Below are positions 5,472 to 9,494 of a DNA stretch of 64,000 nucleotides, in pieces (the stretch's first letter is position 1; each line of letters opens with the position of its first letter). This DNA comes from Halobaculum sp. MBLA0143 (lineage in GTDB: Archaea > Halobacteriota > Halobacteria > Halobacteriales > Haloferacaceae), in NCBI RefSeq assembly GCF_041361465.1, contig NZ_JBGKAC010000001.1, positions 1,984,001 to 2,048,000 on the forward strand, written 5' to 3'. The notes under the pieces were generated by a model that had not been told where the DNA came from, made no database searches, and saw only the letters and a list, made by a program, of their open reading frames with translations. A program made the position numbers and the translations under genes.

Positions 5472-6869
5472 ATGGTACTCGACAATCTCGGCAGTTCCCT
5501 CCGGGACAGCCTCGACGACCTCCGGGGCCAGTCCCGAATCGACGAGGCGGACGTGGAGAACGTCGTCCGGGAGATCCAACGGTCGCTGCTGTCGGCGGAC
5601 GTGGAGACCGGACTCGTCATGCAGCTGTCGGACGACATCGAACAGCGCGCGTTAGACGAGGAGCCGCCCGGCGGCACGACCGCCCGCGATCACGTCCTCC
5701 GGATCGTCTACGAGGAGTTGGTCGACCTGGTCGGCGACTCGACCGAGCTCCCGCTGGAAGAACAGACGATCATGCTCGCCGGGCTCCAGGGCTCCGGGAA
5801 GACGACCACCTCGGCGAAGATGGCGTGGTGGTTCTCGAAGAAGGGGCTCCGGCCCGCCGTGATCCAGACGGACACGTTCCGACCGGGCGCGTTCGACCAA
5901 GCCCGCGAGATGGCCGAGCGCGCGGAAGTGGAGTTCTACGGCGATCCGGACTGTGACGATCCGGTCCAGATCGCCCGCGAGGGACTGGAGGAGACGGCCG
6001 ACGCCGACGTCCACATCGTGGACACGGCCGGGCGGCACGCGCTCGAAGACGACCTGATCGCCGAGATCGAGGAGATCGACGACGTCGTCGAGCCGGACCG
6101 CTCGTTGCTCGTGTTGGACGCCGCCATCGGTCAGGGGGCGAAGGATCAGGCCCGCGAGTTCGAGCGCGCCATCGGTATCGACGGCGTCGCCATCACGAAG
6201 CTGGACGGCACCGCGAAGGGTGGCGGGGCGCTGACGGCCGTCAACGAGACGGACTCGTCGATCGCGTTCCTGGGCTCGGGCGAGACCGTCCAGGACATCG
6301 AGCGGTTCGAAGCCAGTGGCTTCATCTCCCGGCTGCTCGGGATGGGTGACCTCCAACAGCTCGCCGAGCGGGTGGAACGCGCGATGGAGGAGACCCAAGA
6401 GGAGGAAGACGACTGGGACCCCGAGGACATGATGGAAGGGGAGTTCACCCTCGTCGACATGCGCAACCAGATGAAGGCGATGGACCGGATGGGCCCGCTC
6501 GACCAGGTGATGGACATGATCCCCGGTCTCGGCGGCGGGATGATGGATCAACTCCCGGACGACGCGATGGACGTGACTCAGGATCGGATGCGGGAGTTCG
6601 AGGTCGTGATGGACTCCATGACCGACGAGGAGATGCTCGACCCGAACGTCATCGGTCAGCGACGGAAGGAACGCATCGCCCACGGCTCCGGCGTCGAGGT
6701 CGAACGCATCGAGGAGCTACTCGAACAGTTCCGGATGATGAAGCGCACGATGGAGCAGTTCCAGGGGATGGGCGACGGCGACATGCAACGGATGATGCAG
6801 AAGATGCAGCAGGGCGGCGGCGGCGGTGGCGGCGGGGGCATGGGCGGAATGGGGCCGTTCGGGGACTAG
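5472..6869 (+). CDS. srp54: SRP54, signal recognition particle GTPase
   Basis: Ribonucleoprotein GTPase that binds signal sequences and the SRP RNA and docks on FtsY; 465 residues. The N domain begins at ATG 5472 ([17 protein letters not shown]). The G domain shows [20 protein letters not shown] (about residue 102), [13 protein letters not shown] (about 183) and [13 protein letters not shown] (about 243). The M domain, from about residue 300, is rich in methionine ([19 protein letters not shown]) and ends in a Gly/Met-rich tail. The longer open frame from 5274 only overlaps the hydrolase remnant. ftsY lies 4.5 kb upstream; an accessory patch sits between the two SRP genes. Confidence 0.98.
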
Positions 6870-6911: not shown

Positions 6912-7304
6912 GTGTGTCGTCAGTTCATCACTCTGCTCGAATACAATGCCGACCTGTACGGCTGTCACGTCGTACAAGTCGAAGCGGCAGGAACGACCAA
7001 AGAGTGTACGGCGTGTAGTGTGGAGACGGCGAAACCCATCTGGGTCAGGGAACACTCCTGCCCGGCGTGTGGGTTCGAGTGTGACCGTGATGCGAACGCG
7101 ACGATGAACGTCCTCAAGCGCGGCTTTTCTGAGTTAGGGCTGGGATGGCCCGAAGACACGCCCGTGGAGACTGTGACCGCTGTGGATACCGTTGAGTTTC
7201 AGCGAGTGTCTGCAAGTCACGTCGTGGAAACGGGAAGCCTCGGGGTCGTTCGGAAGACGAAGTCTTCCGTGATGACGAGAGACGAAGTCTCTCGAACCAC
7301 TTGA
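6912..7304 (+). pseudogene. TnpB (IS200/IS605 OrfB) C-terminal remnant
   Basis: Only the last ~130 residues of an IS605-type TnpB remain. The zinc ribbon (ECTACSVE ... HSCPACGFECDRDANA) carries CxxC pairs and the final RuvC Asp of the DRDAN motif; the family-typical tail SASHVVETGSLG follows. The N-terminal domain and the first RuvC acidic residues are absent, and the homology starts abruptly at CRQF about 45 bases after srp54. No TnpA is nearby. The end of the frame runs into the folded right-end sequence (7237-7313). The fragment cannot be an active RNA-guided nuclease. Confidence 0.85.
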
Positions 7305-7453: not shown

Positions 7454-7497
7454 AAAACTCTACGAAACACTGTTATAACAGGATTTCGTAGAGTTTT
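7454..7497. promoter_or_regulatory. nested palindromic operator over the TATA box
   Basis: A perfect 14-base inverted repeat (AAAACTCTACGAAA at 7454-7467, TTTCGTAGAGTTTT at 7484-7497) encloses a second perfect palindrome, CTGTTATAACAG (7470-7481), whose centre is a TATA box. That box lies about 25 bases before the GTG at 7500, so the transcript would be leaderless and the whole core promoter sits inside the palindrome. Autorepression by the winged-helix protein encoded immediately downstream is the simplest reading. Confidence 0.8.
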
Positions 7498-7499
7498 GC

Positions 7500-8600
7500 G
7501 TGTGCTTTGTAACATCAGATCTCCAGGTAATCGCTGGGGTCGAGGCAGGGGCGCGTCAGTACCGAGATCTGATAGATCGAACCGGGCTCGCACGGTCGAC
7601 GATCTCGAAGAGTGTGAGCCGTCTGTCGGAGCGTGGAATCGTCGAACGGGATCAGAGCGGGCGCACAGTCACCGTCCGGCCGCAGCCGACGAGTGTTGTC
7701 GACGAGATGGCTACTGTTCGTGAGTCGGCACCGCAACTAGATCTCCAAGAGTTCCTGACGGTATCGCGGCTCCGGATCATCTGGTTTCTCACAGCACCAC
7801 GTACACCGTCAGAGATTGCACGGTTCACCGACGTCGACGAGCCGCGCGTGAGGCAGATCCTGACAGCACTACAGAAGCGGCAGGTCGCAACAGAGACGGG
7901 CGGGCAGGTACGACTCCGGTCGAAGTACGAACCACTGCAGTCACTCGCCGAGTGTGTGTTCAATCTGTTCTACGCGGCCGAAATCGATTCGATGTACCGG
8001 AGTCCGACAGTGATCTGGACAGCACCACACGAAGCGTTGTTCACCGCTCCCTCGGCCGGCGGATGCGAGTCTCTGGATGGGACAGTCACCGAAACCGGAC
8101 TAGATCAGTTCATCCGGTGGGGACTGGAGTTCCGGAGCTCGTCGTCTCCGGTGTACTACTACTCTGAGCTTCCCGATACGGGCACACTGGCTACGACGGA
8201 CGTAATCGTCCACACACTCTGTCGGAGGGTCGACAACAGACGGGTGGAGTACAGTGCTCTGTTGGTCGCCGAGGCTGTGGTAGACGGTGATTTCGTTCAC
8301 GAGCAGTTCCTCGAACTCACAGACCACTACGGAGTGAGAGAGGTCGGAGAGTACCTCGCGGCGCTCGTCGTTGCGAGTGCCGAATCCGCGGGGACCGGCC
8401 GGCGGCACAGATCGGTGAGAAGGACAGACGCGGCAACGACACGATCCGAGCGAGATCGCTCCACACCCACTCACGAGTGGCTCCCGTCGCCGGGTCGCGT
8501 TCGAGACACCGCGGTGCAGTACGGCGTCGACATCTCCGCAGCCAGTGAGAAGCTGAAAGACGCTGTCGATGGAGAGGTATTAAAACAGGTGAGAGAGTAG
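7500..8600 (+). CDS. double winged-helix regulator (possible AbiEi-like antitoxin)
   Basis: Protein of 366 residues. Two winged-helix domains are visible at the N-terminus: about residues 18-62 (YRDLIDRTGLARSTISKSVS) and about 88-145 (RTPSEIARFTDVDEPRVRQI followed by a wing). The remaining ~220 residues are a globular region of no recognised family, with a charged linker near 300. GTG 7500 sits directly after the nested operator. The next gene, 10 bases downstream, is a nucleotidyltransferase, so the pair resembles type IV AbiE systems (autoregulatory wHTH antitoxin plus NTase toxin); this is inference from architecture. The regulator is intact while the partner is frameshifted. Local G+C is lower than in the neighbouring housekeeping genes. 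Confidence 0.75.
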   Translation: MCFVTSDLQVIAGVEAGARQYRDLIDRTGLARSTISKSVSRLSERGIVERDQSGRTVTVRPQPTSVVDEMATVRESAPQLDLQEFLTVSRLRIIWFLTAPRTPSEIARFTDVDEPRVRQILTALQKRQVATETGGQVRLRSKYEPLQSLAECVFNLFYAAEIDSMYRSPTVIWTAPHEALFTAPSAGGCESLDGTVTETGLDQFIRWGLEFRSSSSPVYYYSELPDTGTLATTDVIVHTLCRRVDNRRVEYSALLVAEAVVDGDFVHEQFLELTDHYGVREVGEYLAALVVASAESAGTGRRHRSVRRTDAATTRSERDRSTPTHEWLPSPGRVRDTAVQYGVDISAASEKLKDAVDGEVLKQVRE

Positions 8601-8610
8601 AACAGATATA

Positions 8611-9494
8611 GTGGAGTCGTCAGAAGAGTACAGTACAGAGGCACAGTTACGCGAGACGTTCGAGGAGGTAGGCTCTACACTGGAGTATCCAGCAGACGCC
8701 TATCTGATCGGAGGGGGTGCGATGACACTTCGAGGAACCAAGCCGTCGACAAAGGATGTCGACCTCGTTACCGTAGCCGAGACTCGTTTCGACGGGTGAA
8801 GGCGGCACTCCTCGACACGGACTACAGTATCGAGCGGAACGTCGCACCGGAGTACGAGTCTCTCGGGGCGACAGCCGTCTTGAAGCGAGAGGACGGAGGC
8901 CACGTCGACCTGTTCGACCGGCAGGTTGCACTGAAACTCGACTTCTCCGAGCGAATGCAGTCGCGGGCGACCGAACTTCTCGCCGTCGGGGAACTGACCG
9001 TGTCGGTGTGCGCACCCGCCGACATCGCGCTGTTCAAGATGATGACACCACGTCCGGACGACACCCAGGACGTTCGAGACATCATTACAGCGAACTCTCC
9101 GACGTTCGACTGGACGACGGTTCGAGAGGAGTTCGAGTCACAGCTCCCACTCAACTCTGGGGTGCGCGAGTACGAGTGGCTGATCGAAGGCAAGCCACAC
9201 CCGATTATCCAGCTCGAACAGACGATCCGGCGTCTCGACGGGGTCCCGTCGGAGTTAGCGGAGACAGTTCGTCGGACTGCAGACACCGTCGAGGCGGAGA
9301 GGTACGTGATCGAACGACTCCTCCGCGTCGGGTCGACGACGACACGGCAGCTTCGAGAGCACGTCACCGAGACGAGCCCGACAGTTCCCGCGCACGTCGA
9401 GCGAGCACTCGACGAACTGATCGACAAGGACGTTGTCGCACGTCACGACGACACGGTCGAACTCGACACCGCGTGGGCAGACGACGTGTCGTAG
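8611..9494 (+). pseudogene. nucleotidyltransferase (AbiEii/MNT-like), frameshifted
   Basis: Two frames together make one ~294-residue nucleotidyltransferase. The first (GTG 8611 to TGA 8799) carries the active-site signature YLIGGGAMTLRGTKPSTKDV followed by DLV, that is GG...DxD. The second frame starts at the overlapping GTG 8796 and continues VKAALLDTDYSIERNVAPEY with HVDLFDRQVALK, APADIALFKMM and a C-terminal winged-helix-like part (TTRQLREHV). The total of 884 bases is one short of a multiple of three, and I recall homologues as single proteins, so a base is probably missing near 8793. Two coupled genes (GTGA overlap) or programmed frameshifting are alternatives. Its partner is the regulator just upstream. 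Confidence 0.75.

Follow-up and report, generated by a model that had tools for sequence, protein, structure and literature searches.

The closest described systems are bacterial operons in which a regulator gene is paired with a nucleotidyltransferase gene. In AbiE, a type IV toxin-antitoxin system of Streptococcus agalactiae, the bicistronic operon carries the winged-helix regulator first and a polymerase-beta-type nucleotidyltransferase second, and AbiEi represses abiE with positive cooperativity via two 23-bp inverted repeats that lie 3 bp apart in the promoter and cover 49 bp (PMC3985639, PMC7319586). The regulator-nucleotidyltransferase operon Rv2827c-Rv2826c of M. tuberculosis is likewise autoregulated via inverted repeats in its promoter (PMC7319586).

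In a 64-kb stretch of the Halobaculum sp. MBLA0143 genome (the complete stretch analysed, hereafter the window) we found a 44-bp palindrome centred on a TATA box (positions 7454-7497) that is, with high probability, the negative autoregulatory operator of a toxin-antitoxin-like operon encoding a tandem winged-helix regulator and a DUF6036 nucleotidyltransferase. The regulator would bind this site as a dimer and repress from it, and the nucleotidyltransferase may be toxic and be neutralised by the regulator. The likeness to abiE extends to the gene order, to the polymerase-beta motif of the second gene product and to an operator that overlaps the promoter, which measures 44-52 bp here versus about 49 bp, as two halves of about 23 bp, in abiE (22-26 bp per inverted half among the relatives studied here). 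In addition, the operators at two related loci (L012 and L018) have the outer arm TGTTGC, which also forms the outer arm of the abiE operator in S. agalactiae (TGTTGCTTTTA); this may be a coincidence.

Membership of the AbiE family itself was rejected for both proteins. The regulator combines two winged helices with an HVO_2833_C domain and lacks the AbiEi C-terminal domain, no AbiEi model (COG5340/DUF4095) being present among its Pfam matches, and its partner belongs to DUF6036 and not to DUF1814/AbiEii. The links of the nucleotidyltransferase to AbiEii were weak (one of 13 members matched the PADLOC AbiEii model, E 0.002, and an AbiEii/AbiGii-family PDB chain, 8an4, matched with E 0.012). 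A further difference is that the operator is centred exactly on an archaeal TATA/BRE promoter. Rv2827c-Rv2826c differs in having four 23-bp repeats (two pairs), negative cooperativity and a bacterial promoter, against a single symmetric two-layer site here. The operon is best explained as one that works like abiE in its autoregulation while lying outside the AbiE family. A literature search for DUF6036 or HVO_2833, whose coverage excluded most subscription journals, returned no paper naming either.

The palindrome and the core promoter

The sequence of the palindrome, AAAACTCTACGAAACACTGTTATAACAGGATTTCGTAGAGTTTT, is laid out as AAAACTCTACGAAA-CA-CTGTTATAACAG-GA-TTTCGTAGAGTTTT and is self-complementary at 40 of 44 positions (20 of 22 pairs) without any spacer. 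As the original prediction had it, perfect 14-nt arms (7454-7467 and 7484-7497) surround a perfect 12-bp palindrome, CTGTTATAACAG (7470-7481), and the two mismatched pairs fall between the arms and this core. At the centre lies the self-complementary TATA box TTATAA (7473-7478, plus strand), and a TATA-like centre was found in nearly all relatives. Further out, the left inner box CGAAA (7463-7467, plus strand) is identical to the haloarchaeal BRE consensus (PMC4983044), coincides with the position expected for a BRE in a haloarchaeal promoter and is the proposed contact of the first winged helix (HTH1). It is mirrored by the right inner box TTTCG (7484-7488, minus strand). The left outer box AAAACTC (7454-7460), with its mirror GAGTTTT at 7491-7497, is proposed as the contact of the second winged helix (HTH2), by analogy with the family-wide outer layer and its co-variation with HTH2 (see below). 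We know of no core-promoter role for the right-hand mirror copy of the BRE box.

The palindrome is the top symmetry centre of the window, with 20 of 22 pairs versus 16 for the runners-up, and first-order Markov sequences (n=15, 64 kb each) reached a maximum of only 16-18 pairs, on which grounds a chance palindrome was rejected. A scan of the 3.58-Mb genome, allowing at most three mismatches in 20 arm bases, returned 7454-7497 as the sole match. The exact arm pattern was absent from the viral contigs searched and had 10 matches in a collection of genome contigs; every one of these was bacterial and was attributed to chance.

The palindrome was expected just before a GTG and does adjoin the one at 7500, the actual gap being two intervening bases. 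Initiation at this GTG is probably leaderless, judging from the position of the TATA box, although the TATA centre lies 24 bp before the GTG versus the common 27, slightly short for a transcript that starts exactly at the start codon. In Haloferax volcanii, 72% of the coding transcripts are leaderless and some of these start at GUG (PMC4983044).

The regulator and nucleotidyltransferase genes

The regulator gene (7500-8600, plus strand, GTG start) encodes 366 aa, with matches to MarR/TrmB-like winged helices and to PF24271 (HVO_2833_C; 42.6 bits, cut-off 34), which makes the protein a member of the latter family. An AlphaFold2 model of the lone window sequence was unusable (pLDDT 35). The second gene, which the original prediction had missed, encodes the toxin-like DUF6036 nucleotidyltransferase (8611-9494, plus strand). 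In the window it is frameshifted near 8778-8799 and split over ORFs 8611-8799 and 8796-9494, with the regulator gene and the palindrome intact in the same genome, so that this genome may no longer have a working intact module. The frameshifted fragment alone scored 16.8 bits against PF19502 (DUF6036; cut-off 23.6). The gene is intact in the orthologous loci of two same-genus genomes, and their products (295 and 297 aa) scored 32.9 and 39.1 bits, within the family. The polymerase-beta motif hG[G/S]x9-13DhD is retained in the nucleotidyltransferase as GG-x13-DxD, reading IGG-x13-DVD in an orthologue, and the residues G35, G36, D50, D52, K144, R149, D152 and D155 were found to be invariant. The regulator and nucleotidyltransferase genes overlap by 4 bp in 11 of the 15 pairs checked, a sign of a single operon. 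A toxin-antitoxin-like pairing of the two would explain selection for tight autoregulation. Several plasmid loci (L163, L165 and L166) likewise have a disrupted or absent nucleotidyltransferase gene.

Conservation of the palindrome and its geometry

The original prediction had staked itself on the palindrome recurring upstream of close homologues. It was present in the same two same-genus orthologues, where 43 and 36 of its 44 bases are kept at protein identities of 65% and 63%, whereas the 60 bp just upstream of it match at only 24 and 22 positions, giving a sharp conservation boundary at the upstream edge of the palindrome in both. In one of the two (G003) the centre had changed on both sides, from CTGTTATAACAG to CTATTATAATAG, and was still perfectly symmetric, while the right outer arm had drifted.

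These observations leave little room for a feature of RNA or mobile-element origin (a transcribed hairpin, a terminator or a transposon end derived from the upstream TnpB element at 6912-7304), which is scarcely credible. A TnpB C-terminal fragment does end about 150 bp upstream and a 44-bp palindrome could fold as a hairpin if transcribed, but the palindrome is single-copy in the genome, stays in place in the orthologous loci without conserved flanking DNA and lies upstream of the expected transcript start, and in many groups its geometry is tied to the start codon and the TATA box; a transposon end or hairpin was rejected on the contrast between the conserved palindrome and its unconserved flank. 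The TnpB-type fragment lies between the palindrome and ffh (a signal-recognition-particle gene that ends at 6869), and a different small ORF was found at its position in one orthologous locus (L032).

Regulator-nucleotidyltransferase pairs were collected from the haloarchaeal family and order, yielding 67 unique upstream regions in 30 clusters at 70% identity. Most of these regions contain a palindrome of about 44-52 bp that is centred on a TATA-like element and stops a few bases short of the start codon, and in nearly all the best 50-bp symmetry is centred between -24 and -31 relative to that codon. When each cluster was represented by a single member, the mean was 16.1 of 25 symmetric pairs versus 12.5 in dinucleotide shuffles (combined p ~4e-23; individually p<0.05 in 20 of 30 clusters). 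A symmetry of at least 14 of 25 pairs was found for 84% of the family TATA boxes versus 17% of 249 other TATA-like hexamers at the same loci, a conservative control since a few of these hexamers may be unfiltered operators. Two groups (L125 and L158) showed little total symmetry, and L004 and L124 were more weakly affected in the same way.

Averaged over clusters, symmetry peaks at 8-11 bp (inner boxes) and at 19-24 bp (outer boxes) from the centre, which places the inner boxes about 20 bp (two turns) from each other and separates each outer box from its inner neighbour by about 11-12 bp (one turn). The two concentric layers of the original prediction were drawn differently from these family-wide boxes: in the window the inner and outer boxes both lie within a single 14-nt arm, the outer box being about 3 bp closer to the centre than in other groups, and most of the 12-bp palindrome in the middle is simply the TATA box, which is self-complementary. 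The layout is common to groups with unrelated arms (TTGTCTCA, TGTTGCA, TGTAACA, GTCAAC/GTAAAC and AAAACTCT). Taken with the conservation in the orthologues, it provides good support for the predicted core-promoter operator, autoregulated by the tandem winged-helix protein that it precedes.

Annotated members include those of Haloterrigena turkmenica plasmid pHTUR04 (HTUR_RS24690/RS24685, the latter annotated as a DUF6036 nucleotidyltransferase), Halobacterium sp. DL1 and Haladaptatus sp. DYSN1. Outside the haloarchaeal order, six members (G217, G226, G228, G325, G219 and G288) had 16-20 of 25 pairs around a TATA-like run and also had the nucleotidyltransferase downstream. Searches for related loci in the genome contig and viral contig collections and in phages returned no relatives at the sensitivity of the search.

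Probable recognition of the boxes by the two winged helices

Across 62 distinct combinations, the similarity of the inner boxes was found to track the recognition helix of HTH1 (partial r 0.38 given HTH2, versus 0.07 for HTH2 given HTH1) and that of the outer boxes the recognition helix of HTH2 (partial r 0.42, versus 0.13 for HTH1). Controlling for whole-protein identity as well gave 0.31 (HTH1) versus 0.08 for the inner boxes and 0.23 (HTH2) versus -0.05 for the outer boxes, shared ancestry being controlled only partly in this test. The clearest case is the outer box TCTCA, which pairs with RATVYR/RATIYR-type HTH2 helices across groups with differing HTH1 helices. This co-variation supports binding by the cognate regulator, probably with one monomer per half-operator.

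It also bears on two other explanations of the palindrome. The first, that a genuine operator serves another regulator encoded by the host and not the product of the adjacent gene, draws on the many winged-helix proteins that haloarchaeal genomes encode. We consider it improbable, because the operator letters vary with the recognition helices of the adjacent protein and because the site is single in the genome and hence, at the stringency of that search, not a member of a larger regulon.

The second holds that the palindrome is a bidirectional core promoter, on which a BRE, a TATA box and a mirrored BRE load TBP and TFB either way. TTATAA is indeed self-complementary and has on both sides a box resembling CGAAA, the haloarchaeal BRE consensus, but the box letters track the recognition helices of the regulator, and the upstream flank is unconserved in the orthologues, where a conserved divergent gene is not apparent. 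Moreover, symmetry is highest in the outer boxes, which at 19-24 bp lie beyond BRE and TATA. On account of these outer boxes a bidirectional promoter was rejected, and we hold it to be even less probable than binding by another regulator.

A model for autoregulation

As an autoregulatory operator of the adjacent gene, the palindrome would be bound by a regulator dimer whose four winged helices each occupy one of the four boxes, all on the same face of the DNA. The HTH1 domains would sit on the inner pair of boxes, which are separated by two turns, and the HTH2 domains on the outer pair, each a further turn away from the centre. Such a dimer would span the entire core promoter and cover BRE and TATA box simultaneously, so that TFB and TBP would be unable to bind and the operon would be off for as long as the regulator is in excess.

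It is about an even call whether these operons represent a widespread and undescribed archaeal toxin-antitoxin family, in which the tandem winged helices of each antitoxin monomer would read a two-layer, TATA-centred palindrome whose geometry is shared by haloarchaea and by further families in the same phylum, with letters that diversify along with the recognition helices to give orthogonal self-repressing promoters. The box rule (boxes 8-11 bp and 19-24 bp away from the TATA box in both directions) would make the operator of each member readable from sequence, and the natural variety of arm and helix pairs makes a recognition code testable and offers potential orthogonal repressible promoters for haloarchaea. 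An uncharacterised gene pair that is common on haloarchaeal replicons is thereby tied to control of a toxin-antitoxin-like kind. In the group with TGTAACA arms (L007, L023, L024, L029 and L179) we also observed another inverted repeat, TTAACCAACA...TGTTGGTTAA, which is conserved and lies upstream of the operator, about 80-150 bp before the start codon.
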